From Brachypodium distachyon (Eukaryota > Streptophyta > Magnoliopsida > Poales > Poaceae): DNA of 64,000 nucleotides. Each line of letters starts with the position of its first letter. Position 1 is the stretch's first letter. Below the pieces are notes generated by a model. It was given only the letters and a program-made list of their open reading frames with translations. It did no database searches and was not told the origin of the DNA. Positions 34,423-60,840 of the stretch are shown here, in pieces. The position numbers and the translations under genes were made by a program. Location: NCBI RefSeq assembly GCF_000005505.3, contig NC_016133.3, forward strand, positions 35,922,737-35,986,736, in the 5' to 3' direction.

Positions 34423-35514
<1,092 letters not shown>

Positions 35515-38529: not shown

Positions 38530-41030
38530 GTGCTTAGCATATGAACGGAATGAAGGCCGGAACAATGTACGTGCAGCAGCCAGTATCACTGTCGCGGCCT
38601 GTTATCCTTCCTCCCTGTGGCGGAGATAGGATTTTTGTCTAGAGTGGGGTGACTAAATTTTTTTAGGTTCAGTACAATGAATTATCAATCAATGAAGGCA
38701 ACATCTAATGATCTCAATTCTCAATTCCGACAAAAGCAATCAATGTAAAGTAACATCTAATGATCTCAATTTTCAATTCCCACAAAATCACATCTTAAGT
38801 TAGACTTGAAAGCTTCAGAATGAACAAGATTGGAACTTCGGAAGTGTCCTGCTATGCCCGACGATGGCGTGGCTGTCTTGGAACACTCCTTTTCAGTGCT
38901 GCGCCTGCTGCTTGCCTTCTCCTCGCGTCCTGCTCAGCTCTACAGGTGTGGCAGCGCCTCTCGCCTGACCGAAACTTTGATTTCGTGGGGAATCGGGGAT
39001 TTGGGAGTTGTAGTCGTAAAGGCACAGCAGTAGGGAGAGACGAAGCGTTGCGGCGCTGCCCGGAGGTGCGTATGATGCGCTTGCGAAGAAGAAACGCCCG
39101 TGCGGTTAGTAGCGTACAATTCGGCCTGTTGGTTGTCGGGCTGCAGCTTTTGAACCGAGCAATTGGTTTTTTTGATTTTTTTCTTTTTGTTAACAATAAT
39201 TTGTGAACATGTGCCGGATTCTTAGGGTGGTCCACGCCCACCGTGCCACCGTGCTGGCTCCGCCACTGCTTTCTCCCCCTAACCAAACAATCGCTCTTAA
39301 TTCCTCCTACTAGGCCAGCTCACAGAGAAAGTGAAGAGGGAACCAAGCCAATGCCAGTCATGGGGCAGCTAATCAGGCCCAAGAAATCTACCGGGTTACG
39401 GCCCAAATAAGAACTTGCCCAAGTCGTGTGTCCTTGTGCAGAATGCACATGGGATTAAAATTATGGATGGAGTTCAATTCCTGGTCCGACCGGCCATGAA
39501 TGAATGCATGAAATCAATTCTCTAACAGAGAAAAATTACTACGGAGTACAATACTGTCTTGTACTGCTAGCTGACTCGGTCAAGTAGCGTGACACCGTAT
39601 CTGAAAGCACGGGCCGACTGATGCCTCAACTAGCAACTCAACAGGGTTGTGTGTACCATTTTGATGCAGAGATCGGATGAAACCTTTTTTTTGGAAGAAG
39701 AGAAAAAAGCTAATAACTAATTTTTTTCTTAATTTCGCATCACTCCCAGCGTTACATTAAGGAACCCATGGTAGGATAACCAGAATGAACCGTTAACTAC
39801 AGCTCTCATAAACTTCACACACGCATCTAACACGTGCATCTAACTTCACACACGCACACACTTCACCGAACTACGAGTATATAAATTCTTCAGCAGTTTA
39901 AGAAATATATTAAATGATTTTTTTACATGTATCTAAACGTTTTTTAGACAGACATACATTCATATTTGGATAAATTTGGAGGGAGAGAGTAGTTCTCTGT
40001 TTGATCGGTTCACAGCAGCATCCTAAGCTACCAATTCTACGTGGAGCAGAATGGCACCGCTGGTCATAACCAAACAGTCGTCGCTGGCTGGGCACGGCAG
40101 GCATCAGGAATTCGTGCACGTCTGACCTTTCACTGTACCTACGCTCACCGGTGTTGATTTGCCATTTTGGCACACTCTCGCCACACGAGGTCCGGAGGGC
40201 TTCCGCTCCGGTGCACGTGCGCCGCCCAACTGGTGTAACATGATCCTAATCCTTAGCTTCATCGTGGCAGGCTTGAACAGTTTAGATTGGAATGGCTTTG
40301 CTCCGCCAAGTGGCTCCGTAGATAAATCTACGACAGTGCGTGCATACTCTGTCTCTGTGCTATTGCACGCTTTGGAGCTATAGAATTCAAAACTTCGGTA
40401 TCCCGTCAAATATTCCGAACTTTAATTGTATATATAAAGCAGGATGTGTGCCTCTTGTCCAAGAAAAAAAGAGCTGCAAAGCATTGCCCATAGAACATCT
40501 CTCGTGTGGGTTGAAAATTTATGTTATTTAATTTAAACCCGATAGTACATTTGTTTTTTAAGTTTTCAAACAACTCCGAGATAAATACTCGAACATGGGT
40601 CTATGAAGTACCATCTTAAAAAATATATGAGGAAATGGGTAAAATCATTCTTTAACACTGAAAAAAATATCACAATCTAACAAATGACAAAAAAAAAGAC
40701 CGAAGTTTTGCTATCAGCAAAAACGGGCTTGTGCTTGTCTGTAATTTCTGCAAACTCAGCTAAAGTCAAGCCCTGACCTGAGAAGCACCTGACTGGAGTC
40801 GCATATCCGCACCTCGACTCAGATGTTAAAAGTCTAAGCTATCCTTTGCAGTTTGCATAGTATTTCCTCCACGGAACTGAGTATTAGGTACCGTAAAATT
40901 GGCCTACTTTAAAGCAGATCAATGTTGACTGTCCAACTTTCGAAAATTTAAGCAAATTTGTAAAAAAAGATATCAACATCAATATTGTCAAATCATACTC
41001 CATCATGAAATATGTTTTCATGATTGTTGC
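38530..41030 (+). ncRNA. Candidate 21-PHAS unit A (miR2118-triggered phasiRNA precursor), with an upstream remnant
   Basis: A TATA box (TATATAAA, 39,878-39,885) precedes a 22-nt site at 40,089-40,110 ending CAGGCATCAGGAA. An upstream module containing GTTACATTAAGGAACCCATGG (39,751) is shared with units B, C and D. A half Stowaway (about 39,917-39,989) sits between TATA and site. At 38,540-38,610 the phrase GCCGGAACA..CAGTATCAC matches 41,090-41,125 and marks the remains of another unit. 39,310-39,615 repeats 41,205-41,600 and 42,545-42,790 plus 48,741-48,850. No coding potential. In grasses such RNAs are cut by miR2118 and diced by DCL4 into 21-nt phasiRNAs in anthers; that role is inferred. 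Confidence 0.5.
40089..40110 (+). promoter_or_regulatory. Candidate miR2118 target site, unit A
   Basis: The site reads TGGGCACGG then CAGGCATCAGGAA, near-complementary to 22-nt grass miR2118. The expected cut lies between 40,100 and 40,101. Confidence 0.6.
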
Positions 41031-41462
41031 AGTACAGCACCCAAGGGCTGCATACAAATGCTCGCGTTTTGCATATGACCTGATGAAGGTCGGAAGCCGG
41101 AACAGTCTGCAGCAGGCAGTATCACGGCAGTATCCTCTTGTAAGCTTTTGACCAAAAGAATCGATCTTCCCTGTTCAAAAAACAAGAACAACACTCTTAC
41201 CACTAGTAGGCCACTGGGCCATCTCACGGAGAAATTAGGAGAAAGTGAAGAGGGCGCACGGCCCAACCAAGCCAGTCGCATGATGGACTAGAATGGGGCA
41301 ATTACTCTGGCCCAGGAAATCTACTGGACTACGGCCCAAATAAGAACATGCCCATGTCGTGAGCAGAACGCACATGGGATTCGGATGGAGATTAATTCGT
41401 GGTCCGATCGGCCGTGAAGAGATCAATTCTCTGAGAGAAGAAAATTTACTGCTCTCTTCCTA

Positions 41463-41533
41463 GTCCCTCCGTTTCATAAAAATTGACACGATTTTGAACT
41501 AGAGCCGGGCAAATCTTTATGAAACGGAGAGAG
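41463..41533. mobile_element. Small Stowaway MITE (71 bp)
   Basis: Inverted ends GTCCCTCCGTTTCATAAA and TTTATGAAACGGAGAGAG with TA on both sides. Confidence 0.8.
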
Positions 41534-42178
41534 TACTACGTACTGTTTGTACTGCTGGCTAACTCACTCAGTAGTGACCAGAAAGCACGGAGGGGCTGAT
41601 GCATTAGCTATAGGGATGTCAACGGACGCCGCCGCCAAGCCCGTTTAGCCCTGCCGTGCGGCCTTTGACATTGGAAAGGAAAAAAAACAAAACTAAAAAC
41701 CGTGCGGGAAGCTGATTAAACGGGCTTGACGGTGTCCGTTGACATCCCTAATTAGCTAATAACTCGAGCAAAATTTGCTTTGACTGCCCCTGCGAGGGTT
41801 TAACCTCTCCATGTCTTTATTCTCATCTTCCTTCTCTTATACTCCCTGCGTTACATCTAGGAACCCATGGTGGATAAATAAACCCGATTGAACCATCAAT
41901 TACAGTCCGCATATACTCCAATCTGAAGATTCTGCCAGCACACGCACTCCATATAATTTCATCACCAGCTTTATCAGTGGATTTGCATTGATAGCAAGCA
42001 TCCCACTACAACGAAGGGGGTGGCAATGGCGCGCAGCAAGTGTTTCCCGCTTCCAACTATTTAAACAACTGATATCGCGCTTCTTTTCCCAAACACCATT
42101 CAGCTAATCAACCAATTCGACGAGTGAGCAGCAGAACGCGACAGGTCAGGAATCAAACAAACATCCCTAGTTGCTAGC

Positions 42179-42200
42179 TAGACACGGTAGGCATCAGGAA
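42179..42200 (+). promoter_or_regulatory. Candidate miR2118 target site, unit B
   Basis: The site reads TAGACACGG then TAGGCATCAGGAA. The expected cut lies between 42,190 and 42,191. Confidence 0.6.
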
Positions 42201-42795
42201 TCCGTGCATGCCGATGCCAATGGTCGATCCAGCTTCTTTCTAGTTACGTCCTACCTCCTCCCAACGGTGAAGTTGCTCGGCGGCAGTCCAGCCACGTTCT
42301 AGCCGGATGCGCCCCGGATGGTTCCCGTTTTGGTGGGCCGTGAACGCTTGCAAGGGCATTTCACACGCCAATAGTAGGACCTTAACGTGACAGGTCTGCA
42401 GATCCATGAGTCTCGTGAGTAAGTAGTTCACGGCAATAGTAGGACCTTTGGAGGCAGTATCACGGCACGATATCTTCCTGTGGCAAGTTTTTGACCAAAA
42501 GAATCGATCTCCCCTGTTCAAAAAAGATCTTGCCTTGTTTGGGATAGGCCATCTCACGGAGATTTTTTTTTTTGAGAACGGCCATCTCAAGGAGATATTC
42601 TGAGAAAGTGAAGAGAACGTACGGCCCAACCAAGCCAGTCGCGTGATGGACTAGAATGGGGCAATTACTCTGGCCCAGGAAATCTACTGGAGTACGGACC
42701 AAATAAGAACTTGCCCATGTCGTGAGCAGAACGCTTCACGCTATGGATGGAGATTACTTCCTGGCCCGATTGGCCATGAATAGATGCATGAGATC

Positions 42796-43517
42796 TGTAG
42801 AGATTTCGAAGTGGGCCTAACACACTACGAGAGGGCCTATTCACTTATACCAACTACTTTGGTGTAGTTGATTAGTCCCTTTTTTATTTCTACTTACTTA
42901 GTGCAAGCTTCCGGGCGGCAGAGCCACTTACGTTAAACCAAGTCTTGAATCCGGACGGCTATGCCACTCACGTTGAAACAAGACCGTTGTGATTCCGGAC
43001 GAATCCGCTCACGTTAAATCACAACTTATATGCACTAAGTACTTAGAAATAACAAGGCCTAACCGGGAGACTTATATGAACAAAGTAATACTATATTGCT
43101 TTAGAAATATTAGTACAAGAGAGAGCATACACACCTTACACTTGCTCACACCTTGTTCTCCACCTTCTTCACTTTCTTATTCTCTACTACTCAAGGTGTG
43201 AGGCAAGGGCCTCTATTTATAGGACTACATGTCCATTGGATCTTTGACATGTGTCAAGTTCTTAGCCATTGATACAAAATATCTAAAGCCTTCCACACAC
43301 TTCTACACAAATATCTAGGTATTAGAAGGTTTCCTATTTATTTATTTTAAACTCCTATTCTAGAGTATTCCAAAGTTTCTACATAATTCTTCATGCATAT
43401 CTAAACACTAGAAGGTTCCCTCTTTTATTTATTTTATATTCTAGAGTATTCCATAGTAATGTCTTCTTTCTTGTAATATTGAGAACACTCTAGAAGTTTG
43501 CATTGTATTCTCCAACA
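42796..43517 (-). repeat. 3' LTR of the Copia element
   Basis: 722 bp, same length as the partner at 48,019-48,740. It contains three spaced copies of a CACGTTAAA/CACGTTGAA word with TCCGG(A/G)CG in front. Confidence 0.95.
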
Positions 43518-43525
43518 CTCCCCTT
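43518..43525 (-). other. Polypurine tract of the Copia element
   Basis: On the minus strand GAAGGGGAG stands directly before TGTTGGAG of the 3' LTR. It overlaps the end of the polyprotein frame. Confidence 0.8.
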
Positions 43526-46500
43526 CAATGCAAAGCTTCTTTGGTGACCATGCCAAGAGCTTCTCGAAACTTCTCGAACTTTAATTTGTTGAGACTCTTG
43601 GTGAGGATATCTGCAGTTTGGTCTTCTATCTTTGTTGGCACCATCTCAATTTCCCCCTTAAGGACCTTTTCTCTGATGTAGTGGTAGTGCACCTCTATGT
43701 GCTTTGTCCTTGCATGGAAGACAGGATTTTCTGCTAGCCCTATGGAGGATAAGTTATCACAGAAAATCCATACCTGACCTTTTGGAGTTTGATGAAGGTC
43801 TTCCATCAATTGTTTAAGCCAGGTGCTTTCTTGTGCTGCCGCTGCCGCTGATCGATATTCTGCTTCAGTACTTGACAGTGCCACTGTAGGTTGCCTTTTG
43901 CTGCACCATGTTATGGCTCCCGATCCAAGACTGAAGAGATATCCAGTGGTTGATCTCCGTGTATCACAATCTCCGGCATAGTCGGCGTCGCAGTAACCAA
44001 TAACCTGGCATTCTTTTGTTTTTTTATATAGGATGCCATAATTTAAGGTGCCTTTGACATACCTGAGTATTCGCCTTATTGCATCAAGGTGAGGCTTCTT
44101 TGGTGTGCTCATGTATCGGCTTGCCACTCCAACGGCAGAGGAAATATCTGGCCGACTAAGTGTCAGATAGATAAGACTCCCGACCAGTTGACGATACATG
44201 GTTGCATCCTCCAAGTTCTTTCCTTTGTCTTCTTGAAGTCTTGCGTTATGATCCATAGGAGTGGAAATAGGTTTGCAGTCAAGCATCCCATACCTCTTAA
44301 GAAGGTCCTTCGCATACTTTTGTTGGCTTAAGAATATCCCATTCTTAGTGTGCTCCACCTCAAGTCCAAGGAAGTGTCTTAACTCACCAAGTTCCTTCAT
44401 TTGAAATCTCACGGAGAGATTTTCCCTTGCCCTTTCTATCTCCTCGGAGTAATCTCCCGTGATGATCAAGTCATCAACGTAGACTAGACCTATTGCTAGT
44501 CTTCCTTCCTTGGCCATCACAAATAAACTAGAGTCTGATGGAGCAACTTTAAAGTCATTGTGTAATAGGAACTCACCGATCTTTCCGTACCATGCTCTTG
44601 GTGCTTGCTTTAGCCCGTAGAGTGCCTTCTTTAGTTTGCAGACATGCTCGGCGTATTTCTTGCTCTCAAACCCCTTTGGCTGCTCCATGTAAATCTCCTT
44701 GTCAAGTTCTCCATGCAGAAAGGCATTCTTGACATCCATCTGCCACAACTCCCAAGACTTGCTGGCAGCCAATGCAAGCAAGACTCGAACTGTTGTGATT
44801 TTTGCCACCGGACTGAATGTTTCTTCGTAATCCAGTCCATACTCCTGCGAGAAACCTCGTGCCACAAGTCGAGCTTTATACCTTTCAATTGAGCCATCTG
44901 TTCGGGTTTTCACTTTGTAAACCCATTTGCAGGATATTGGCTTCACGTCCTTTGGCTTTGGCACTAAGTCCCATGTTTGGTTTTCCTTTAGTGCCTTAAT
45001 CTCTTCTTCCATCGCCTTCTGCCACTCAGGTCCTCGTGCTGCTTCTTCATAGGAAGATGGCTCAATAGGTAAAGACTCATCGGCAAGAGCAGCATTAGCG
45101 TACCTTGGATTGGGCTTCCTGGGTCTTGTTGATCTTCGAAGTTCTTGATCATGCTCCTCGGTTTGTGGCTCTTCAGGTTGGTGTATGCCAGTCTTCCACG
45201 GACTCTTGGTCTTACTTGGTGAGTTCCTTTCTCCTTTACTTGGGGTTTCTAGCTTCTGATCTCTTTCTTCTTCTATAACCTCCTCCATGTCAGGTGATTC
45301 AGGAATCTCTTCTTTCTTAGAGGACCACCATGAAGAAGCTTCATCAAACATAATGTTCCTTGAGGTGTGACACTTACCTGTGGTTGGATCACAACACCTC
45401 CATCTTTTTCGAGCATCATGGTAACCAACGAAGATGCACCTCTTCGCCTTCTTTTCAAACTTGGTTCTTAGGTGATCTGGCACAAAGATATAGCATACGC
45501 AACCAAATACCTTGAAGTGGCTGATGGCTGGTTTCATCCTCCAAAGCTTCTCATGTGGTGATTTGAACCCCAACCTCACTTGTGGTAGTCTATTAATCAC
45601 ATGAGCTGCAGTCCTCATACACTCGGCCCAGAATCTTCCAGGAACATTTTTGGCATGCAACATACTCCGACAAGTTTCCGCAAGGTGACGATTCTTGCGC
45701 TCCGCTACTCCATTTTGTTGTGGAGTATTATGACAAGTTAACTGCCTTTTTATCTTATTTTTCTTGAGATAGATGGTGAACTCATTGGATAAATATTCTC
45801 TCCCATTGTCAGTGCGTAGGCACCGTATCTTATACTCGAGTTCACCTTCTATCATATCCTTAAATTCCTTAAATTTCATAAAGGTCTCAGACTTCTCCTT
45901 CATAAAGTATACCCAAACGTACCTTGAGAAGTCGTCGATGAAGGTCACCATGTATCTCATGCCTCCAAGTGATATTTGCTTGACTGGGCCAAAGACATCT
46001 GAGTGTATGAGCTCTAGAGGTACCTTTGACTGATGCTGCGACTCCTTGTATGGCAATTGGTGGGCCTTGCCATACTGACATCCAGCACAGACCGTGTCTG
46101 TACAGATATCAAGATCAGGAAGCCCCTTCACTACGTGCTTCTCTATCATCTCCTTCAACCTGTGGTAGCTGACATGTCCAAGCCGCGCATGCCAAAGATC
46201 AGCTGTCTCATTCTTCCGAGTCTTGTCTACATATGTTGAATCAGCAGAGAGCACAAAGAGTGAGTCTCTCTTTTTCCCTTCCATGACGGGTGTGCCGATC
46301 ACCTTGAGCCTTCTGAAGATTGCTACTTCTTGTGGACCAAACAGAACATACTTCCCTTCTGCTGTCAGTTGAGGTACTGACAACAGATTCTTCTTCAAGC
46401 CTGCGACATGATAGACTCTCTCAAGTTGGAGTTGTTGAGGACCATACCTTGGAACGACTGTCTTTCCAACATGGGAAATCAATAGCTTGGAGTTGTTGGC

Positions 46501-47841
46501 TGTCAGAAACATTTTTCCTCCCTTGTACTCGGTCATATCTTGCAGCTTGTTGTCATCATTAGTCATATGGTTGGAGCACCCAGAATCAACGATCCAATCA
46601 TCTTTATAGTTGATTTTTGGATCCTTGATTGCTGCAAGGGTTGGCGCCTCCATGTCCTCCTCCAACTCTTCTTCATCCGTTGCAAAGACTGGTGGCTCCA
46701 TGTCTTCCTCCAACTCTTCTTCATCCATCGCAAAGGCTGGTGCCTCCATATATTCCTCCAACTCTTCTTCATCCATTGCAAGGGCTGGCACCTCCATGTC
46801 TTCCTCCAAGTCTTCTATGTCAAGCTCTTGAGAGTATCCAGCTTCGGCGTCCCATTCTTCTTCGCTCATGGATGCTTCTAGAGTGATCTCCTCTTTCTCC
46901 TTTGTGGTGGCCACATTCCCTTCATAACGCCTTCTTGGATATCGACATTCTCGAGTAAGGTGACCTTTCTTACCACAATTGGAGCATCCATCATTTGACC
47001 TCCTTGGAAATCGGCATTCTCGAGCAAAGTGACCTGCCTTGCCACAATTGAAGCATCCATCACTTGGTCTCCTTGCATTCTTCTCGTACCATTTTGGTCC
47101 TTGTCTTTCTCGTTGGTCTCCCCCTGAAGAGTTGCTTCTCTCCTTTGGATGTTCTTTCCCACCTTCTGTCCACTTAGGCTTGGGCTTCCATTGTTTTTGG
47201 TGTGGGCTCTTCTTCTTAGTGAAAAGTGCCTCCTCTTCTTTATTTATGGTTATGCTCCCCATCTTCTTAGCTAACTCCTCTTGATTTACCAATAAATTCT
47301 CCAACTCCACTACTGAAGGTGGAGTAGGCCATCCCATCACCGCAGCCATAAACCCATTGTATTCGGGTCTAAGACCGTGGATGATGATTCTCTTCATCCG
47401 AGCCTCGCTCACCTTCTCATCCGGGGCAAGTTGGGATATCTCACAGCAAATAAACTTCACCTTCGAAAAATATTGACTGATGGATAGATTGCCTTGTGAG
47501 ATACCTGCGAGCTCATTTTCCAAGAGCTGGAGCCGTGCTTCATTTTTCCTTGAGAATAGCTTCGCCAAAGTCTCCCATGCCTCCTTAGGTGTCTTCTCAT
47601 CACGGATGTGCTCCAATAGGTCCTCTTCGATGGTCGTCTTCAATACAAATATGGCCTTCTCTGACTTGATCTTCCATTTCCGCAAGGCATCAGCATTCTC
47701 TGGAGGAAATTGTTCGGTGCCCGCAACGACCTCCCATAGGTCCTGACCTTGTAGGTAGGACTACATGCAGGTCTGCCAATAGCCATAGTTGTGGCTATTA
47801 AGCTCCCTGATCCCGCTGCTTGAGCTAGCAAGATCTGCCAT
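43525..47841 (-). pseudogene. Copia gag-pol polyprotein with a single early in-frame stop
   Basis: From ATG 47841 the frame is open for 26 codons, meets TAG at 47763-47761, then is open without interruption to 43525 (about 1,411 codons). Order of domains: gag (UBN2-like), two CCHC knuckles (CFNCGKAGHFAREC, CSNCGKKGHLTREC), four acidic 16-residue repeats, protease (WIVDSGCSNHMT), GAG-pre-integrase (HARLGH..CAGCQYGK), integrase with HSDVFGP, TFIDDFSRYVWVYF, RTDNGREY and QQNGVAERKNR, reverse transcriptase (KARLVARGFSQ, QMDVKNAFLHG, YVDDLIITGD), and RNase H (GYCDADYAGD, SSTEAEY). Every catalytic motif I can name is present. The element could be mobilised in trans, or the stop could be bypassed; whether it is active is unknown. 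Confidence 0.95.
46630..46824 (-). repeat. Four 48-bp tandem repeats encoding acidic 16-residue units
   Basis: The units read like DEEELEEDMEAPAFAM. They lie between the zinc knuckles and the protease, a place where Copia gag usually has only a linker. Confidence 0.9.
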
Positions 47842-48004
47842 GGTGACTTGCGCCGAGCGTCAAGTAAGCTTTGGTCCCGGACCAGCTTCACAGTCCCAGA
47901 CTGTGCACCAGCAGAGTCTCCCCTCAGTGCCTTCTTGTTGCACCGAACAAAGCAAGCACCCCGTGCTTACAACTCTTCCTCCAAATGATGGTCCCGGACC
48001 GCCT

Positions 48005-48016
48005 GCTCTGATACCA
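48005..48016 (-). other. Primer-binding site of the Copia element
   Basis: On the minus strand TGGTATCAGAGC follows the 5' LTR after two bases. This is the standard complement of the initiator methionine tRNA 3' end. Confidence 0.95.
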
Positions 48017-48018
48017 AT

Positions 48019-48740
48019 TGTAAAGATTTCGAGGTGGGCCTAACACAATACAAGAGGGCCTATTCACCTATACCAACTACTTTGGTGTAGTTGATTAGTC
48101 CCTTTTTTATTTCTACTTACTTAGTGCAAGCTTCCGGGCGGCAGAGCCACTCACGTTAAAGCAAGTCTTGAATCCGGACGGCTATGCCACTCACGTTGAA
48201 ACAAGACCGTTGTGATTCCGGGCGAATCCGCTCACGTTAAATCACAACTTATATGCACTAAGTACTTAGAAATAACAAGGTCTAACCGGGAGACTTATAT
48301 GAACAAAGTAGTACTATATTGCTTTAGAAATATTAGTACAAGAGAGAGCATACACACCTTACACTTGCTCACACCTTGTTCTCCACCTTCTTCATTTTCT
48401 TATTCTCTACTACTCAAGGTGTGAGGCAAGAGCCTCTATTTATAGGACTACATGTCCATTGGATCTTTGACATGTGTCAAGATCTTAGCCATTGATACAA
48501 AATATTTAAAGCCTTCCACACACTTCTACACAAATATCTAGGTATTAGAAGGTTTCCTATTTATTTATTTTAAACTCCTATTCTAGAGTATTCCAAAGTT
48601 TCTACATAATTCTTCATGCATATCTAAACATTAGAAGGTTTCCTCTTTTATTTATTTTATATTCTAGAGTATTCCATAGTAATGTCTTTTTTCTTGTAAT
48701 ATTGAGGACACTCTAAAAATTTGCATTGTATTTTCCAACA
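48019..48740 (-). repeat. 5' LTR of the Copia element
   Basis: 722 bp, TG..CA ends, followed leftward by the primer-binding site. Confidence 0.95.
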
Positions 48741-48942
48741 AAATCAATTCTCCGACGGAGAAAATTTACTAGCGTACTGTCTGTAGTCTATAGTCTATAC
48801 TGCTAGCTACGAGTAACCCGCTCAAGTAGTGACTATATCTGAAAGCAAGGAGTAACTCAAAGCAAAAATTGCTTTGATTGTGCCCCTGCTCAGCAAAGCG
48901 GCGATTCTAGCACCGCTAGTGCCGATGAGAGCCCCCACGTGC

Positions 48943-49620
48943 CTGAGCAAAGCAAAGCCCCCCCAACGTGCTTGTGCAGAGAAGGAATGGGATTGGGATA
49001 GGACTTTGCTTTTTTTGCACTAACACATTTTGTGATTTGCAAAAATTATTTAATGGTCCAAACAAACTCATAATTTTATGAAAATTTGAGGATAGTTTTA
49101 AGATGGAAAAATACACTTTCAGTAAAAGTTTCGAAAATTTTAGGGCAAATATGAAAATCTGGTATATATTTCTATTGGTATATGGCATATGAATGGTATA
49201 TTTACTGGTGTATGATGTATGAATGGTATATGTCATTGGATATTGGTTTATGTCATCGGTATATGATAAAATAATGGTATGTGATATGTGTTATTGGTGT
49301 ATGATATATGATATATGAACGGTATATGTCATTCATATATGATACACGAATGGTACATGTCATTGGTATATCAAATTTACGTCATTCATATATGACATAT
49401 GAATGCTCTAAATTTTTTGAAACTTTTAGTGAAAGTGGATTTTCCCATATTAAAACTACCCTTAAATTTTTCATAAAATTTCAAGTTTGTTTGGAGCATT
49501 AAATAATTTGTATAAACAACAAAATATGTTAGTGCAAAACTAGCAAATTTCAATATCCCAATCCCATTCTTTCTCTGACGCACGAGCACGTGGGGGAGGT
49601 GGGACTTCCCTTTTGCTCAG
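48943..49620. mobile_element. Fold-back element with long inverted arms (about 205 bp) and a TATATG-repeat core
   Basis: The left arm (48,943 to about 49,147) starts CTGAGCAAAGC; the right arm (about 49,410-49,620) ends TTTTGCTCAG. They match as inverted copies through CACGTGC, GAATGGGATTGGGATA, TTTGCACTAACA, AATTATTTAATG.TCCAAACAAA and AAAAGTTTC. The core (49,160-49,400) is a degenerate minisatellite of GGTATATG..TCATT units. No transposase and no clear target duplication. It could be a non-autonomous Mutator or fold-back MITE. Confidence 0.75.
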
Positions 49621-50200
49621 ACACTTTGCGTTACATTAAGGAACCCATGGTGGGATAAATAAACCTGATTGAACCATTAAATACAGCCCGCATATACTCC
49701 AATCTGAAGATTTTGCCAGCACACGCACTCCATATAATTTCATCACCAGCTTTATCAGTGGATTTGCATTGGCAGCAAGCATCCCACTCCAAACTTTTTA
49801 AGCAACCAGTAGTACTCTCAGACCAAACAAACATTGCTAGCTGGGCTGGGCATGATAAGCATTGTTAGCTAGGCATGATAGGCACCGGGAATTCGTGCAC
49901 GTCTGACTTCACTGTGCTATGCTCGCCGGTGTTGCTTTTGGCATCCTTGACCTGCTCCGGACGGCTATCACTCTGGAGGATGCGCCCCGTCGCATATGCT
50001 ACAACCAAATCAAAATCTTTAACTCCATCCGTCCGTCGTGATGAAAAGCCCAGTAGTGATCTCGCTATTAACAGCTTAGATTGGAACTCCGCCAACCCTC
50101 CATCGAGTAGTGCCAGGAATTAATGACACGGTAATGTACTGATGGGCGGCGCTGGAGCTGGCATACATAGGACCATTGTGTTCGAATGCACGTAAAATAG
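49621..50200 (+). ncRNA. Candidate 21-PHAS unit C
   Basis: Shared upstream module from 49,629 (GTTACATTAAGGAACCCATGG), closely matching 41,849-42,000 of unit B through CTCCAATCTGAAGATT and CCAGCTTTATCAGTGGATTT. A TATA-like CTTTTTAAG is at 49,794-49,802 and the site at 49,870-49,891. A partial extra site word (TGGGCATGATAAGCATT) lies just before, suggesting a small local duplication. It is shorter between TATA and site than units B and D. Confidence 0.45.
49870..49891 (+). promoter_or_regulatory. Candidate miR2118 target site, unit C
   Basis: The site reads TAGGCATGA then TAGGCACCGGGAA, with more mismatches than units A, B and D, near the seed side. The expected cut lies between 49,881 and 49,882. 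Confidence 0.45.
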
Positions 50201-50819
50201 AACAAATAAATATGTCTCATTGATCTAATCTTTGTCTCGCTGTTTATTAGTGAAAAAAATACACCATAAATACGGAAAGTGATCCCAATGGTCTGGTTTG
50301 GTTTTCATACAAAGTCCGCATGGAGTCTGTAAATCGGTACTTTTTGCTATGCGTCTATGTGCATGAAAGTGATCCCAATGTTCAACTGAGACAAGAAGCA
50401 TTGCCATGGAAAGGACTAATAGACCATCATCAAGTTGCATGGAATTTTCTTTAGTTCAGACTTCGTACAATATATGCATGTACAAGAATCTCGTGCAAGG
50501 CATGTCCATGGCATTGGAAAACAAGAACAAATATCAATGCAAATGTGCTATGCCTGTGAGCGTGCGAATTGTACGAAGTAAGCTAAGCATTGTTGTTACT
50601 GCGACGGTAAGGCTTGAAGAAATTAAACATGTCATGTTGACTTGCTAAAACAAGCACAGTCTGATGGGGCTTAGCTAGCTCCAGAAAGATAATTTAATAT
50701 TCTTCGAGTATACCCAAGCACTGGGCTTGTCCCCTTTTGTTAATTTCTTCTTCCTTTCTAAGGGTTAAATTGCCTTTTTTCAGAAAAAAAACAGAGAGAT
50801 TAAATTACCTGCATATTGT

Positions 50820-51700
50820 GTTAAGGAACCCATGCAGGTGGGTTATGAAACCCCAATAAAACATTAATCCCCCAATCCACTAACATACGAGGGCAAATGT
50901 ACAGAACAAAAGAAGGAAAAAGATTACAAACTCAATCTGAAGATTTTGCCAACACCACACGTTTTTTTCTTAAAAAGAAGGTTGAAACCACCGTGCTCTA
51001 CATCAATTAATATAATGCACACAGCCATGCCAACGACACGTGCAACTTCACGTACATACACACGTGCATGCCAGTACCTTTTCTTTTAAATACTCCACCA
51101 ACAAAGGGGGTTGGCAATGGCGTGCAACAAGTGTGTCCCGCGTCCAACTATTTAAGCAACTGAGATACCGCTTCCTTTTCCAAACACCATCCGGCTAACC
51201 AACCGATTCGACAAGTGAGCAGCAGGCCGTCACAGTTGATCAGAATCAAACAAATGTTGCTAGTCGCTAGCTAGGCATGGTAGGCATCAGGAATCCGTGC
51301 ACGCCGATGCCAATGGTCGATCCAGCTTGTTGAAAGGAACGTCCTGGCACCTTTTGACGTTGAAGTTGCTCGGCAGCGGTTCCGCCACCTTCTAGCCGGA
51401 TGCGCTCCGGATGGTTTCCGTTCTGGTGGACCGTGAACTCTTGCAACGCCATTTCACACGGCCAATACTAGGACCTTGACGTGACAAGTCTGCAAGGCCA
51501 GCAGGCCGGGGAGTTCTCTTATTTTCAAGGAGGTCTTGGTTGCGTAATGCTTAATCATCTGCTGCACGTTCGCAAGTCACTGTGGCATGATCAGCGACTG
51601 AAGTTGAAGTAGAACAGGTAGCTCTATTCTCATGTATAGATAACTCTTTTGTTAGGTTGAGCTATCAGTTAGCTAGTGCACGTTCTGCCGCAGTACCTCT
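50820..51700 (+). ncRNA. Candidate 21-PHAS unit D (best preserved)
   Basis: The upstream module is GGAACCCATG at 50,825. A TATA box TATTTAAG is at 51,149-51,156, and the 22-nt site begins at 51,272, 123 bp after the TATA start. The next about 200 bp align with unit B (GCCGATGCCAATGGTCGATCCAGCTT; GTTGAAGTTGCTCGGC; TAGCCGGATGCGC). No reading frame is conserved between B and D, supporting a non-coding RNA. The 3' end is not defined. Confidence 0.6.
51272..51293 (+). promoter_or_regulatory. Candidate miR2118 target site, unit D
   Basis: The site reads TAGGCATGG then TAGGCATCAGGAA. By memory of grass miR2118 variants ending CAUGCCUA it has only about one mismatch, near the centre. The expected cut lies between 51,283 and 51,284. 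Confidence 0.7.
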
Positions 51701-51829
51701 CTTGTATGTATACGTATGACAGTTTCTCCAGTACCCATTGCTCCACCGGAGCTAAATGGAGTATCAGGCATGGGCATTATAGCCTTTTCCAAATAAAAAA
51801 TAAAATACCAGCTTTATCTCTCTTCCCTT

Positions 51830-52440
51830 ATTTCTCCCGATACCGTTCTTCTCGCGCCGGCTGCGCCGCTCGCAGAGGCCCGTCCCTGCCCCGGCCCTAT
51901 GCGGCTATGCCCGACCTCCCGTCCCCAACCGAAGCCCCAGCAGGCGGCGCCGCAAGAGGCTCCCGTCCTCCTCCGTGCGCTGCTCTGCGTCGTCGCGATC
52001 GAGCCAGAGGCGCCGCCTCCCCTTCGCCGCGATCCGGTCGCTCCGTGTGCCGACGGTGAGGACCTCCGTCGCTCGTCGTGGTTGCCACGGTTCTTCGCGC
52101 CACGCGCTGCCCTCCTCCGGCGCGCCGCCACCGCGGTGCTCGCCGCGGCCCCCGTCACCCTCCAAGGAACACGCCGTAGCGATCCCTCGCAGCGGCCGCT
52201 GCTGTCCTTCACCTCACCCGCCAGAGCCAGCGCTGTCCTCCTCCTGCGCCACGGCCGCCCTCTCCAGTGCGCCGCCCCGTGACCCTGTCCCCCCCGCAGC
52301 TTGCCGTCCACGCTCTGCGCGCCCCGTCACGGTCCGCCGCCATCCTCCGCTCAGCACGCCGTCCTCTCAGCGGCACTCTTCCCGCTCACCGCGCCGCCAG
52401 GCTCGCAGCGTTCGCAGCCGGCCGCCCGTCCCAATGAGCT
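51830..52440. other. GC-rich insertion of unknown origin
   Basis: A sharp GC-rich, C-rich island between AT-rich flanks. Open frames on both strands are Ala/Arg/Pro-rich and resemble no family. It may be a captured gene 5' end or transposon interior; no ends were found. Confidence 0.3.
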
Positions 52441-53624
52441 CTGTTAATTTTTTTAACCGGATAGATTACGCAATTAACCCTGCTTCTTGGTACTCCAACG
52501 ATACTCCATAAGTCCAAATTGGAGTAGTAACGAGTAACGGCTAATCTCAACCGTTAGATTGAAAAAATGGATGGCTCATATTAATTCAGGATACCGTAGA
52601 AGAGCTTTCTCCTGGTTCACAATGGATCCATGGATCTTCTCGGGTAGTAGTGTATGTGGTAATGTGGAAACATGCCATCGATCAGGTTCACGTAGGTACA
52701 TCCAGCGCTGTTCGGCCTGCCGTTGTGATGGGTTCATGGGTGTGTGACAATGTTATGTCCATGACACTCAATTGTCTTTGTTTGTGGTTGGCCGTGCTGA
52801 ACAAATTGTGTTGTTCTAAATGTGACTATTATTTTCTAAAACCTTCTGCTTGAAGCTGTTATGGTCCATACATGCAACTTGAGGATAGTACTTGGTGTTT
52901 CTCCTGTTACATACGTACTTAGAACTACAACATGGTTTTATTACCAAGTATATTATGGTGCATGTCTCCGGATACAAACAAAGGATTCATGACTAATCAT
53001 GCATGGATCCATGGCGCATCCAGCGTCAGGGACCATGGATCTATATGGCGCCACCTCCACCCCTCCCGCCGGCAGAAACAAGCAAGCAAGATCTAGGGCC
53101 TTTCCCGTCGCCTCCTATCCCAAGCACTTTCGATGGGGAGAGAAAGAGGTGTGGCGGGCATCATCAGTGTCGAGGGGTGGGGAGGGCGAATCGGTGTTCT
53201 GGTTGTGGAATGTGATAAGGTTGAGAGAGAAGCCATGAGTTGTATGATGTGCTAAATGTAAGATGTGTTGCTCAACTACAGCAATTTTAATGCATGCATT
53301 TCAGACCCTCGGATAGCATGAACAAACAATTAATACTATGTTAGGTAATTAAAACAATGTTGTCTCGAAAAACACTTTGTTTTTGAAATGTCGAGAATTG
53401 TACAACTACGCACGTTCCGATATGTGCACTGGATAGTAAGTGGTTGGGTTATATTTTGGTAACATACGCACGGCTTGAGTCCCACACAGTATCGACTGCG
53501 CACCCCGCAAACGCTATTTAAGCGACTGGCACTCTCAACTAGCTCTCGTTCGAGCTTGATTTAGTAGTTTAGTCCGTATCACTAGCTAGCTACGCAGCAG
53601 GTGTCTTGACGTGTTCCTTAAGAC

Positions 53625-53772
53625 CCATTTTTGAGCTACATCGTCCTAAATATATAGGATTCGGACCCTGTCAAACACTATTGACCATTTGATGTGAAAT
53701 GGTCACAAATTTATGACCATTTATCCCATGCTCACTAAAACATGGTCACAAATGAACACATTTCTTGTAGTG
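53625..53772 (-). mobile_element. CACTA-type terminus or small non-autonomous element
   Basis: The minus strand starts CACTACAAGAAATG, the canonical end of En/Spm (CACTA) elements, followed by subterminal GTGACCAT repeats. The other end is not recognisable. Unit G lacks this sequence at the homologous place. Confidence 0.55.
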
Positions 53773-53777
53773 GCTAT

Positions 53778-53799
53778 TAGGCACGGTAGGCATCGGCAA
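53778..53799 (+). promoter_or_regulatory. Candidate miR2118 target site, unit E
   Basis: The site reads TAGGCACGG then TAGGCATCGGCAA. The expected cut lies between 53,789 and 53,790. Confidence 0.5.
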
Positions 53800-55045
53800 T
53801 GTGTGATACACGCATCACAAGCCCATGTAACATTGCTAGCAATATGTGTTTGGGATACACGCATCACAAGCCCATGTAACAGTGCTTGCATGTGCTTGAC
53901 AACCCATATGGCGTGTCTGGTTCGTCGGCACCAACTGCATATCATCCTGTTCATTAATCGAAAGTATTACACTGTGCGTCTGTGCTGGCAACTCTCGATG
54001 GGCCAAGTCCGGTACAAGTCCGCAAGCGCAAGAGAAGGTCCAAGCCCAACCTGAAGATCCTTGGCCCGGATTGACGACGCCGAATAGAGACTCGAGAGTC
54101 GAGAAACTTCCTCCTGTCTGTATTCTCCTCTTGTGTGGCGCATTATTTTTATTGCCAACCTATCTTCACTGAGTTCGATTATTAATATGTTTGGGAATTG
54201 ATTTAATGGGTTGAAAACAAAAGCTAAAACTTATAAACTAATATTCGGATGGGAGTTTCGGCTTTCTGTTAGGTTATTTGAAATTGTAGAAATGATGTCG
54301 TTTTTAATAGAGCCAGAGTTCCTCATTTTTTGCAGGTTATCCTTTGGGCTACCCATTGGATTCAACTACGGGCTTACCTGCTTCCTACATCCCAGCAGGA
54401 CATTTTGGATTTTGAATGCAACCGTCTAGATATGATCGCACAGGATTTCTTCAGTCGGGCTAGTTGGCGGTGTGATAGACGACTAGACGCATAGGTTCGC
54501 TATGTTTGAACTTTTTCGTTGGCTTATTTTTGTATTCACGATCTCTGATCAGTGATTTGTAAGACATTTGAATACTTTGTAATAAAAATGGATGTGTGAA
54601 TCGATTTTTTGAAAAAAAAATCTGCTCTTGTAATGTTACGTTATTGCCATCGAATATCAGGAACCTGAGCGAGCTGTAACGAAGGGAAACCATCCCTCTG
54701 AGATCGAATCGATCCCCAACAACTGAGTTCCACCAATCCCAATCTTACTTCGTATCATAATCATGTCCGTCAAGTGTGATCCACCTTTTTTAGATTTGAT
54801 TTATTTTGTTGTTTTATCCTTCTTTCTTGACCTGGAAAAACCGATTCAATCCTTGCAAGTCGATAGAACGAGGCGATCCATCAGGCACAACCTTGTAAGG
54901 ATTGAATCGGTTTTCTAAGAGAGATAGGGAGCACGGTTTGCACTAGCTAGATCTCCCACCTCTGCCTATTTAAGGTCACGGTCCTGCTTCATTGGTATCA
55001 TTTCCCGGTGATCCAAGATGTTTGTCATCGTGATGTTGTAGCATC

Positions 55046-55432
55046 TTCGCCATCCGTTCCAAAATGTAGAGCGCATAAGTATTATTTATTGTCAATTTTT
55101 CTAAAGTTTGACTAACTTCATAACAAAAAAAATATCAAGATCTACGACGCTAATGAAGATCATTAAATTTGTTTGAAATATATTTTCATACTCCCTCCGT
55201 CCAACAAAAGATGTCTCAAGTTTGTCAAAATTTAAATATATCTAGAGTCTAGACATGACTTAGTGTATAGATAAATTCAAATTTTAACAAAGTTGAGACA
55301 TCTTTTGTTGGACGGTGGAAGTACTATATTTACTTGACAATGTAAATATTGATTTTTTTGCTATAAAGTTTGGTCAAACTTTAAAAGATTTGACAATCAA
55401 GTTATACGCCCTACATTTTTTAACGGAGTGAG
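55046..55432. mobile_element. Stowaway-type MITE with a nested Stowaway
   Basis: Outer ends CCATCCGTTCCAAAATGTAG and CTACATTTTTTAACGGAGTG; the left edge is approximate. The inner element 55,191-55,321 (CTCCCTCCGTCCAACAAAAG..CTTTTGTTGGACGGTGGAAG) has TA duplications. The inner one is a close relative of the inner element at 33,699. Confidence 0.8.
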
Positions 55433-55439
55433 TAATATA

Positions 55440-55760
55440 CTGCCTCTATTTCTAAATGTAAGAAGTTATTCTGTCCTAAGTCAAACTTCTGAAACTTTGA
55501 CCAAGTTTATGAAAAATGTATCTACATCTACGACTCTAAATTATTTTTATTAAATTCATCGTAATATATATTTTCATAGTATACTTATTTAATATTATAG
55601 ATATTGATATATATTTTACTCGTCTATCCGGAAATAAGTGATTTGGATTTGTGTAAGAAAGTCACTTATTTCTGGACGAAGAGAGTATATATAACTTGAC
55701 AAATTATAAGAAACTTTGACTTATAATAAAGTTAAAACTACTTATATTCAGAAACCGAGA
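55440..55760. mobile_element. Second Stowaway-type MITE with a nested short Stowaway
   Basis: Outer ends CTGCCTCTATTTCTAAATG and TTATATTCAGAAACCGAGA with TA duplications. The inner element, 67 bp at 55,619-55,685, has inverted ends CTCGTCTATCCGGAAATAAG / CTTATTTCTGGACGAAGAGAG and TA on both sides. Confidence 0.8.
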
Positions 55761-55854
55761 TACTCCAATATTCATGCTCCTCTTCTGCTGTACGTTCTGC
55801 AAGCACGGGTTGACTCTTTATGATTAAGAGCCAGTTACCCACCGGGCTATGTCG

Positions 55855-56700
55855 ACAACTGTTTTAAGTGACCAGCTCTATTCGCTCAAAAAAAAAGTGA
55901 CCAGCTCTCGGCTAAAGTTCACAACGGCGTGCTTCTGGATAGACTGATCCAAGATCCATGCAGGCAGCAAGTGCTGCAGCACATCGAAGCAAACAATTGC
56001 ATCCTTTGCTAGGCATGGCAGGCCTCAGGAATTCGTGTAAATCTACAATTTATTCTGTAACGAGATTCATCTCTCCTCGCTGTACTATCTTTCGGATGGG
56101 ATGACGTATCACAGGCTCTCCAAGTGAGGGTTGCCTATCGGCCCTTGCTCCGCATATCAAACGACGAATTTGGCTGCAGGGTTACATCCTCTATTCCTCT
56201 TCGAGTATCGCCGTTGCCGCCTCTGTCAGAACCTTTTTGCAGCCTGGCCCTCCGGCCAGAAGCCACTCGGTGCAAACCTAGCTACTCGAAAGTGTTCGTT
56301 CTTCCTCGATTGTGCCATGTCGGTAAAGAGCGTTTGTACCCGAGTGCGGCGTTCCGGAGCTAAGCCTTTTAGAACCCAACATTTTAGAAAAATTGAAAAT
56401 GATATTAGAAGCTCTAAGGAGTTCTGCCGCCGTTGTTGTCACCGACGCCCGACCGGGCGGCCGGCCGTCACTGCTGTTAGTCCAGGGCCATGCAATCCGA
56501 GACTTGTTTGCACGGGTAGCTCAAGCAATTTCCGACAGCCCGTGTATTCTTCCATCATCTTTCTACAATTTGTTCTTTGCGTGTCATCTCAGCAATGGGA
56601 ATTCGGTGCAATTTTTAGTTTTTACGCCTGTAAGCTTGCAGCAGCAGCGATCGATGCATGTTATCGTTGCTAGCACTAGTGACTAGTAGCGTTCTCTAGT
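55855..56700 (+). ncRNA. Candidate 21-PHAS unit F
   Basis: A TATA-like TGTTTTAAG at 55,860 and a site at 56,010-56,031 followed by TTCGTGTAAATCT, as in units A and C (TTCGTGCACGTCTGAC). The 56,100-56,690 stretch has open frames on the plus strand (up to 180 codons), but they match no family and are not shared with other units. Confidence 0.45.
56010..56031 (+). promoter_or_regulatory. Candidate miR2118 target site, unit F
   Basis: The site reads TAGGCATGG then CAGGCCTCAGGAA. The expected cut lies between 56,021 and 56,022. Confidence 0.55.
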
Positions 56701-56714
56701 TCACGAGACGTAAG

Positions 56715-56880
56715 AGATAACCCCTAAAATATATTGCGAGCATCAGGATTTGAACCCTGATGGGTGAAGTCATACACTCATAACTCCACAATCACACTAA
56801 GAGGTGTTTTTTACCTCCTACATTCATTTGGATTGAACTGGTTGTGACAGGCCCTAGGAGGGAGACGAGTCAGGAAGTCA
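56715..56880 (-). repeat. Possible tRNA-derived SINE fragment
   Basis: On the minus strand a B-box-like GGGTTCAAATCC lies in a small T-arm-like hairpin (about 56,740-56,765), preceded by an A-box-like TTAGTGTGATTGTGG about 50 bp upstream. No complete tRNA can be folded by eye. Confidence 0.35.
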
Positions 56881-57289
56881 TGGTCCAAAGTAGAGTATAT
56901 GGAATGCATTGCCGCTTTTCCTCCTTTTAGATAGGATCCAATGATTCATGCACAGACCGGGAGTATTCTTAAATTTTCTTTTTCGAAAAAGAGAACATAG
57001 AATAAACAATCATCTCAAAAGGATGGACCAAAATGCATCAAGCCAAGTAATGCACCGATGTTTACATAGTTGTATACTATATCCCAAATCAGCGAGCGCT
57101 GTCGAGACCAATTAATGCATCAACTATCACAAAAAAGGGAAAAAACTCTAAAGGTTATATGCCTGAGTAAACTCTGCAGGGGCTCTGAAGAGTGGCATTA
57201 TTGGCAAACACTAGTTCTACTTGCAACGCTGCTCTATGCTTATGTCGGAACATCCAGATCCAGGGCCACCGTGTCTAGCCACATCCAGT

Positions 57290-60200
57290 GCCAGTGATCA
57301 TAGATCCATGGCACCGTCTCCATCCCTTTTGTCAGTGCAAACGTGTCTGCAAGATCCAAGACCCTTCCCGCCGCCTCCTATCCCAAGCACATTTTGATGG
57401 GGAGACCTCTTATCCGAAGCATGTTTCGATGGGGAAAGAATATGATTGTGATTGTGGGAGAGGACAAGGTGGAGAGAGGAGCCGGTAGAAATATGAGTTA
57501 TACGAGGTGCTAAATATAAGATGTTTCCCTGAAGTCTATACTCCATTCTTAAATACAATTGGATAGAATGTAAACACACTAACGTGTTGCCTCTAAAAAT
57601 GCCTCGTTTTTGAAATGTTGATAATTATATAAGTACATCTGTTTGGATATGTGCATGCGCATGCATACATGCATATGCAATGCATACATGCGTTTTGCAT
57701 ATAGTTGGTGTTCATTTATATGCGTTGGATATGTAGCGGGTGGTTGGGCTACCTTGTGGTAACGTACATATACGGCTAGAGTACCACTGTCACGCAAACG
57801 CTATTTAAGTGACTGGCAGTCAGCTAGCTCTCGTTCGAGCTCGATTAGTAGTAGTTCAGTCAACATCACTAGCTAGCTACGCGACAAGTGTCTTTACATG
57901 TACCTGAGGGAGAGAGCTAGTTACCTTGACCTAATAGGCACGATACACGCATAAGAAGCCCATGTACACCCGGGAAATGTGGTTTTGCACGGGGTGGCGA
58001 CTGTACCGTTAATCTAGACCACGCAACCAGTGTTGAGTTTCGTGTAGCCCACCAACCCTCTATATGTATATCAAACCGTATACTATATGATACGGAGTAG
58101 ATGGATTAGGGTAGGGAGTGAACACGTTGAACCTGGTGGTCTATCTGGGAGCGAGACTTGTTTCGATTTTATTTGGTGAAGAAGCTGTTTGGGAAATTCT
58201 GACGCATCTATTCATCAGGTTTGAGTCGCCAGCGAACGAAGATATTCTGTCTGTTTGGACACAGGCAATCATAGGCAAACGATTTCACAGTTTTACAGAC
58301 TAGTACGGAGTATAGAGCCTAACGTGCATGAGGCTAGTCATAGGGCAAATAACTTGAATAGTAACATAGGTGTCAACTAACCATTTTGGTGACATAGCAT
58401 GGCAAATGAAAAAAAAAAAAAGGTGATAACTAGATATGTTATCATAACATCACACAAATCAAAACAAGATGAGCTTACAAGACAACTAATGGCACAATGC
58501 ATGACACCACACATAAGTTAATATCCACTATGTTACTTCCCACTATAACCAACCTAAGCTTATGCAGACTCTAAGAACTGCATAGAGGTGCAACCCGACT
58601 GAGTTTGTTCCAATGATAAGAAAACGAAGCCTGGGGTGTTCTACACGTGGCGTCATAGCACCGGCGCGAAAGGCAGAACAAAATGAACTACTCCAACTAG
58701 CTAGCGAGCATTAATTAGTCAGTCACTGCATGAACCAAAACAAACAACAACCTGTACAAATCAAACAGCGCCATTGAGAAACATATTTCAGGACATACAC
58801 ACTGCAAACAGGAGAAAACACTTGCCTTACAGCAAAGCAAACCAGGTTGAAACGTACCAGCATAGACTACTTGTTCTTCTTCACGTACAGAACCAGGCTT
58901 CGTCGGTGGTGTCATCCCAGAAGAACGACCTTTTTTTCGAGAAGGCCAAGACCATGTATTAAATCAACCGACCCTTACAGAACGATATTTGAAGTTAAAG
59001 AAAATTACACACAAGTTCTTATAAGTAAGTCGTTGTCTTCCTCCTGCACTCGCCGGTGACGCATCGTGAGCGAAAGTCGATGCTGCTTCTGGACCTCTGA
59101 ACCACGTCGCAGCCAGAAAAACGTTGTTGACGTAAAAGCCGGGAAGTCGCTGCCAGCGACGGTGATTTGAGAAACAGACCACCATCCCGGAGAAAAAAAC
59201 GACGAATAGGGTTGGATGACCATCCCAAATCCGGCCAGACAGATCTGTGAAGACCTAGCCGCACTAACTCCACGATGAGGTCGAAACTGGCTGAGCCACA
59301 CCGATCGAAAAGAAACCCAATAAACAGAAACATGCAGACGACCTGCAAAACAGAAACACGAGACCAGATCCATCACTACATAAGAGCAGCGACCAACTGT
59401 CCCGCACTTCTGAAACCACCGGCAAGATCGCCGTCGATGAGGAGTCAGAAAAATCTTATTCTTGATACGTACAGTGACACCATCAACACCATAATGCCGC
59501 TGCAGGTTGGCCAAAGCCTAACTTTTAAAAACCTACAATAGCATGAAACGTATGGGAGGCAGGACGTCGTTCTTTTGCCAGCCGGCCGGTCGGCCAGCCG
59601 CCCGGGGAGACGATCAATCTCGAGGCGGCTAGGGCACGTCCTTGGAGGCACTCTTGCTGCAAGTCGATCGGTTGAGCAGATCTAAACAAGCGTGGAACGA
59701 GAACAAACCAGTGGTGCAAGCAAGATGAAGTAGTACATTACTTTTTCTTAGAGTTTAGGTCATCTCAATGACGTCTTAATTGCATCGTAGGAAATGTTGT
59801 ACACGGTGATTGCATCGTCCCGCCTGACAGCACATATGGCACGGCTGTGCCGTCGGCGCCAGCAGCATATCCCATTCATTAATCTGGCACGGTGCCGTCA
59901 ACTCCCAATGGGCCGCACCCTGTTACAGTCTGCGAGTGCATGAGAAGGTCCAAGCCCAACCCGGAGCTCCTTGGCCCAGACTGGCGCGAGGCCGAAGTGA
60001 GACTCCAGAAGCTTCCTGCACTCCTTTATACTTATTCTGCTTCTTGTAATCGTTATCGGGGTGTCGAATATAGCTTCCTGCACTCCTTTATACTTATTCT
60101 GCTTCTTGTAATCGTTATCGGGGTGTCGAATATCTGGAAACTGAACAAACTAAACCGAAGGAAATTACACTGCATGTCCATGAACTTGGCTGTGACGTTC

Positions 60201-60840
60201 AGTTTCATGCATTAACTTGAAAACTGTTTAAATGATTCACTGAACTTCGCAGCTTTGTTCATTTTAGTCCAGATGGCCAAAAGCAGGTGAAAATCGGCCA
60301 CGTTGGCATGTGTCGTGGACCTGGCCGACATGTGAGGGGGCTTTTCACAATTTTCTAGTTATGGATCTTTTCTGTTTAATCCCCTCAAGTCTCCAGAATG
60401 GGAAAACACTGCCCTTGCCGGTGAACCCACTTCGCGTCGGAATACTCGACGTCCACGCGAATGGCTCCGTCGATCGGTTCGTCGGCGGCTACTCCAACGG
60501 CCATATCCACGTCACATGCGTCATGACCGAATTTCGCCCGGATCTAGCCATTTGGACTAAAATGAGCAAAGCTGTCAAGTTTAGTGAGTCATTTGAGGAG
60601 TTTTCAAATTAATGGATGAAACTGAACATCGCTACCAAGTTCATGTACCCACAGTGCAATTTCCTCACTACCGAAGGGAAACCATCCCTCTGAACTCGAA
60701 TCAATCCCCAACAACTGAGTGACATGGATTGTGATCCACCTTTTTAGATTTTTTTTTTATCCTTCTTTCTTGCCTTGCAAAAACTGATTCAATCCGTATA
60801 AGCTGTGCCCGATGGATTGCCTCGATTGATCCATCAAAGT
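57290..60840 (+). ncRNA. Candidate 21-PHAS unit G, trigger site deleted
   Basis: Diverged copy of unit E, with shared GCCGCCTCCTATCCCAAGCAC, TATA box TATTTAAG at 57,802-57,809, GCTAGCTCTCGTTCGAGCT, AGAAGGTCCAAGCCCAACC and GAAACCATCCCTCTGA. At 57,934 the site is reduced to TAGGCACG followed directly by ATACACGCAT; about 20 nt present in unit E (the site's 3' part) are missing. Insertions have enlarged the unit. It would be predicted silent for miR2118-triggered phasiRNAs. Confidence 0.45.
60010..60133. repeat. Perfect 62-bp tandem duplication
   Basis: The unit starting AGCTTCCTGCACTCC and ending GGTGTCGAATAT occurs twice head to tail (60,010-60,071 and 60,072-60,133) without a mismatch, so it is young. 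Confidence 0.95.

Follow-up and report, generated by a model that had tools for sequence, protein, structure and literature searches.

A tandem array of predicted miR2118-triggered 21-PHAS genes in Brachypodium distachyon and a putative phase register in its DNA

Introduction

Grass 21-nt phasiRNAs are abundant and their pathway is required for male fertility, while their sequences are scarcely conserved. In grasses, miR2118 causes the non-coding precursors to be processed into evenly spaced 21-nt small RNAs in developing flowers. Ancestrally, the miR482/2118 superfamily targets the P-loop of NLR genes. The composition of phasiRNAs was reportedly the subject of a 2018 New Phytologist paper.

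The closest described systems are the miR2118-initiated phased loci of Brachypodium distachyon itself, apparently in the same genome and with the same trigger family. Jeong et al. 2013 (PMC4053937) describe more than 1,100 phased loci in this species, assign 288 of them to miR2118a/b by PARE, and apply a penalty cut-off of 5 or less. In rice, MEL1 binds 21-nt phasiRNAs with a 5' C (PMC10247740), and anther phasiRNAs carry G at position 19, which was attributed to the 2-nt overhang (PMC7305157). Small RNAs of early meiocytes prefer a 5' C (PMC7562718). The eudicot NLR genes targeted by miR482/2118 have the miRNA superfamily in common with the locus described here; these targets are mostly protein-coding (PMC8368212), whereas no such coding sequence was detected at the present locus by Pfam in eight ORFs.

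Judged from its DNA, this locus is very probably a tandem array of non-coding miR2118-triggered 21-PHAS genes. If so, it is an ordinary representative of such loci, and its pairing penalties of 1.0-3.0 fall inside the cut-off of 5 given in PMC4053937. It resembles the rice 21PHAS lncRNAs feeding MEL1 and AGO1b/AGO1d in its miR2118 site, its non-coding character, the 5' C and the G at position 19. It differs in that the bias is described there in sequenced small RNAs (PMC10247740, PMC7305157) and is seen here in DNA. A sequence-only reading had proposed this interpretation for positions 38530-60840. The interpretation is supported by the analyses below; that the units are transcribed, cleaved and phased at these positions is inferred.

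Methods

The genome searched comprised 271 Mb in 11 contigs. The window, i.e., the whole stretch of 64,000 nucleotides that was analysed, corresponds to C4:35922737-35986736. The six units in the window were named U1 to U6 in the order of their sites, and U7 and U8 denote units past the window end. Sixteen distinct mature miR2118 sequences were taken from the hairpins of the genome by resemblance to a template; of 30 MIR2118 loci, L049, L055 and L056, which differ from the template by 8, 4 and 6 mismatches, respectively, were excluded from this set. For the pairing penalty, a mismatch was counted as 1 and a G:U pair as 0.5, and the best of the 16 genome-encoded sequences was taken.

The register was defined as 21-nt steps counted from the predicted cut, using cycles 2-11. 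The external sites with a penalty ≤ 3.5 numbered 79, i.e., 90 found less nine in the window and two in L081. Sufficient downstream sequence for the register test was available for 73 of the 79 and sufficient upstream sequence for the box test for 74. A set of 75 loci, consisting of the 73 external loci plus the two of L081, was, like all external sites, drawn from a part of the best genome matches listed.

Results

The trigger is encoded in the same genome. Rfam family RF01911 (MIR2118) was found at 34 places, some hairpins being counted on both strands, and 19 of these exceed the cut-off. MIR2118 clusters lie on C6 at 13.92-14.00 Mb and on C5 at 7.47 Mb. Over the window, Rfam gave no family at gathering score and ARAGORN no tRNA. 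The pattern TAGGMATGRGAGGCATCAGGAA had 307 matches genome-wide with ≤ 3 mismatches (154 + 153), compared to four (1 + 3) for the reversed pattern. Among 100 genome matches listed, 17 belonged to the MIR2118 clusters; the other 83 were on C1, C3, C4 and C5, many of them grouped in clusters.

At 4.64-4.82 Mb of C1, miR2118-type sites lie densely on both strands in a cluster that is, among the matches listed, bigger than the array in the window. Two of its loci, L012 and L013, were inspected with a possible NLR cluster in mind; they have a non-coding appearance, with ORFs judged by eye.

All six 22-nt sites named in the sequence-only reading were found at the coordinates and on the plus strand, as claimed there (Table 1), and their proposed complementarity to the grass miR2118 family was borne out with the miR2118 sequences of the same genome. 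The best-scoring site of the array units is that of U4. On the plus strand of 38530-60840, seven places had a penalty ≤ 5, namely U1-U6 and 56855, compared to a mean of 0.15 and a maximum of 1 for 200 permuted miRNA sets. In the entire window, 17 places had a penalty ≤ 5 (at most 7 across the 200 permuted sets) and nine had a penalty ≤ 3 (none in each of 100 permuted sets), so complementarity is far better than with permuted miRNAs. The 12-nt core, allowing ≤ 2 mismatches, was matched 11 times, compared to 6.27 expected; five of 100 shuffles got to 11 as well, a count only modestly above chance, and the core alone was discarded as evidence. The full 22-nt pairing is decisive. A mismatch opposite miRNA nucleotide 13 is common to all eight good sites (U1-U8).

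Table 1. Sites, boxes and inserted elements in the window. Positions are those of the window; ranks are those of the predicted register among 21.
Feature	Position	Strand	Penalty	Predicted cut before	Register rank	Remarks
U1 miR2118-type site	40089..40110	+	2.5	40101	1/21	
U2 miR2118-type site	42179..42200	+	3.0	42191	1/21	
U3 miR2118-type site	49870..49891	+	2.0	49882	1/21	
U4 miR2118-type site	51272..51293	+	1.0	51284	1/21	
U5 miR2118-type site	53778..53799	+	3.0		17/21	
U6 miR2118-type site	56010..56031	+	2.0	56022	1/21	
Candidate site outside array	30902..30923	-	2.5		1/21	no box found
Candidate site	53102..53123	-	3.0		1/21	no box found
Candidate site, paralogue of 53102	57365..57386	-	3.0		8/21	
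U1 TATA-like box TATATAAA	39878..39885	+				at -211
U2 box CTATTTAA	42057..42064	+				122 bp ahead of site
U4 box CTATTTAA	51148..51155	+				124 bp ahead of site
U5 box CTATTTAA	53514..53521	+				264 bp ahead of site; 109 minus inserted repeat
Box CTATTTAA, no site downstream	54966..54973	+				paralogue of box at window-equivalent 64853
Dispersed repeat fragment between U1 box and site	39907..39978	.				at least 39 other genome matches
Copia-type LTR retrotransposon between U2 and U3	42796..48740	-				LTRs 42796-43517 and 48019-48740, 97.1% identical
155-bp dispersed repeat (MITE-like) in U5 box-site gap	53618..53772	.				at least 25 other genomic places
Dead U5 paralogue	57801..57942	+				box retained, site reduced to TAGGCACG (57935-57942); compared by eye

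The six sites are clustered on one strand within 16 kb. The interval 38530-60840 does hold them, as had been proposed, but the array goes on past the window end, with good sites of U7 and U8 at window-equivalent 66955 (penalty 2.5) and 69251 (2.0) and a weak site at 64965 (4.5), which was reached via its promoter box. The units are arranged head to tail. They are built from a box of the TATTTAA type, which is clear in U2, U4, U5 and U7, the conserved 22-nt site and a mostly diverged body. Mobile elements and a deletion have interrupted or inactivated some of them. The Copia-type element, which had not been mentioned before, splits the array; an exact target-site duplication was looked for around it and none was seen. 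Apart from dispersed repeats, the matches listed for the array DNA elsewhere in the genome include no long one, and two that are short and weak. Three minus-strand sites with a penalty ≤ 3 are also new to this analysis. Two of them, 53102 and 57365, have 21 of 22 bases in common. The third, 30902-30923, lies about 9 kb away from the array on the opposite strand and is possibly a separate PHAS unit.

A TATA-like box had been claimed ahead of each site, with a spacing of 121 and 123 bp in the two best units. The spacing is exact, TATTTAA starting at -121 in U2 and at -123 in U4. The wider claim was upheld only in part: in U6, no match to the box patterns was obtained within 260 bp upstream of the site, the sole box-like match in U3 is TATAATTT at -137, and U1 and U5 have a box upstream with a dispersed repeat intervening before the site. 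Because of these inserted repeats, U1 and U5 depart from the box distance of 109-124 bp. In 70.5 kb, CTATTTAA occurs seven times on the plus and once on the minus strand; it lies 109 bp ahead of the site in U7, 112 bp ahead of the weak site 64965 and, compared by eye, 134 bp ahead of the shortened site of the dead U5 paralogue. Genome-wide, TATAWA starts between -200 and -81 in 44 of 74 loci, compared to 11 of 74 between -400 and -281 and 6 of 74 between +81 and +200. Counted by cluster, the values are 16/20 versus 7/20.

Across the 28 unit pairs of U1-U8, the sites share 16-21 of 22 bases. The 100-bp flanks are near shuffled level, save those of U2/U4 (0.77 and 0.80) and the downstream flank of U1/U3 (0.67); some leader similarity remains as well, e.g., 0.61 upstream for U2/U7. 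Divergence of the neighbouring sequence, as stated by the earlier reading, thus holds for most pairs, but U2/U4 and the downstream parts of U1/U3 are clearly alike, and their remaining likeness is that of recent duplicates. In the U2/U4 alignment, 332 of 392 bases are identical, the substitutions are distributed evenly over the codon phases (21/19/20) and the gaps measure 1, 2 and 1 nt. The assertion that the site is conserved while no reading frame is holds for this pair. Pfam gave no match for eight ORFs of the cluster, and hence detected no NB-ARC coding sequence near the sites in these ORFs.

A 24-PHAS (miR2275) reading was rejected, since the best match in the window had six mismatches to the miR2275 target and lay outside the array.

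In the 75 loci outside the window (cycles 2-11), C occupies position 1 of the predicted register in 32.5% (mean over positions, 22.4%) and G occupies position 19 in 30.3% (mean, 23.5%); U at position 1 is not enriched in these loci. The register chi-square is 146, compared to 62 ± 11.5, and none of 300 random-register sets was as high. In a duplex with 2-nt overhangs, G at position 19 is paired to the 5' base of the other siRNA, so both strands favour a 5' C. Among the 21 registers, the predicted one was the best for the 73 external loci, and among periods of 17-27 the best was 21. The effect peaks in cycles 2-7, with cycle 2 beginning with C in 59% of these loci, and is weak in cycles 12-20 (72 loci; C 0.250 versus 0.216, G 0.238 versus 0.220). 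In draws of a single locus per cluster (20 clusters), the predicted register won 495 times out of 500; thus the register does not come from paralogues alone. In 19 MIR2118 genes, the complementary strand, on which the same 22-mers occur, had no register (45/228, mean 55, sd 8). For single loci, the signal is modest: leaving out each group in turn, the predicted register ranked first in 13/73 and within the first three in 30/73, while control starts 500-800 nt downstream ranked first in 3/66.

A model trained only on the 73 external loci placed the predicted register first of 21 in U1, U2, U3, U4 and U6, where the ranks of U1-U4 are not independent, these units being partly homologous. U5 ranked 17th, and U7 and U8 ranked 11th each; U5 is probably a decayed unit. 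Cycle 2 begins with C in all six window units and in all three minus-strand candidates, and in neither of the two units past the window.

Discussion

If the locus acts as its sequence suggests, RNA polymerase II would transcribe the units in pre-meiotic anthers, and a 22-nt miR2118 from the MIR2118 clusters of the genome would cut the transcripts after position 12 of the site. The 3' fragment would be copied by an RDR6-type polymerase and then cut each 21 nt by a DCL4-type Dicer. The 5'-C siRNAs of both strands would be loaded into an AGO5-type Argonaute (MEL1 in rice).

The 21-PHAS reading draws on the presence of MIR2118 genes in the same genome, on pairing penalties that permuted sets did not reach and on the excess of genome matches over the reversed pattern. 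It is further favoured by retention of the site where the flanks are mostly lost, by the lack of a coding signature in U2/U4 and of Pfam matches in the eight cluster ORFs, and by a box at a preferred distance both here and genome-wide. An externally trained register that comes first in five of six window units argues for it too, as do the missing register on the complementary strands of MIR2118 genes and the 288 miR2118-initiated phased loci reported in PMC4053937. Counted against it were the register ranks of U5, U7 and U8 (17, 11 and 11 of 21), the lack of a clear box in U6, the mismatch opposite nucleotide 13 in all eight good sites and the partial homology of U1-U4, which makes their register results not independent.

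The sites and their rhythm might instead have been inherited from formerly active PHAS units that are now largely silent after insertions. The Copia element within the array, the repeats separating box from site in U1 and U5, the shortened site at 57935, the site-less box at 54966 and the failure of the register in U5 would all fit such a relic. However, U2, U3, U4 and U6 retain low-penalty sites with the register ranked first, and box, spacing and site were kept together in the two best units, so we regard a relic array as improbable. Far less credence still is given to the sites being a motif that arose by chance and was spread by tandem duplication: the units are partly tandem duplicates and the 12-nt core by itself is only modestly above chance level, but the permutation nulls and the register test speak against it, as do the 83 of 100 listed genome matches found on C1, C3, C4 and C5 away from the MIR2118 clusters. 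Nor, once dispersed repeats are set aside, do the listed matches show a long counterpart of the array DNA elsewhere; two are short and weak.

Descent of the sites from an NLR P-loop has a starting point in the array site itself, which resembles the P-loop codons in one frame. This origin was rejected on the absence of a Pfam match in the eight cluster ORFs and on the evenness of U2/U4 differences over the codon phases, i.e., evolution without codon structure; the box and register tests also indicate non-coding PHAS units, and we consider a P-loop remnant extremely unlikely. The tandem array of non-coding 21-PHAS genes is thus our preferred reading.

We lean slightly towards the view that the DNA itself records the phase register, in that the early siRNA starts, over about six 21-nt steps, keep C on both strands while the rest is free to change. 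In the literature surveyed, no statement was found that the 5'-C/G19 bias lies in PHAS DNA, and an earlier description is possible. The step past prior knowledge would be that the register can be read from DNA, phasing itself at these coordinates being predicted. If this is true, selection would act on Argonaute loading and not on the sequence of any single siRNA: were the DNA to keep no more than the miR2118 site, the spacing of the promoter and the C of early starts, Argonaute loading would be the constraint. PHAS loci and their registers would then be recognisable from the genome alone, without reads, wherever MIR2118 genes exist.

Neighbouring sequence

A RING-H2 gene is located at 34423-35514; in the first eight rows listed, its best matches are in pooid grasses with 71-74%. 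The segments 3337-4703 and 10108-11472 are related, being 68% identical along 1.4 kb, and their ORFs of 368 and 262 aa had no Pfam match. On the plus strand, an ORF at 62721-63245 has a Pfam match to Oxidored_q6 (PF01058) that spans only a small section of it, residues 126-161. Ahead of this piece is a stretch which by eye resembles a Copia-type gag; this is perhaps a retrotransposon carrying a captured piece of a nuclear gene. A perfect 62-bp tandem duplication is present at 60010-60133.
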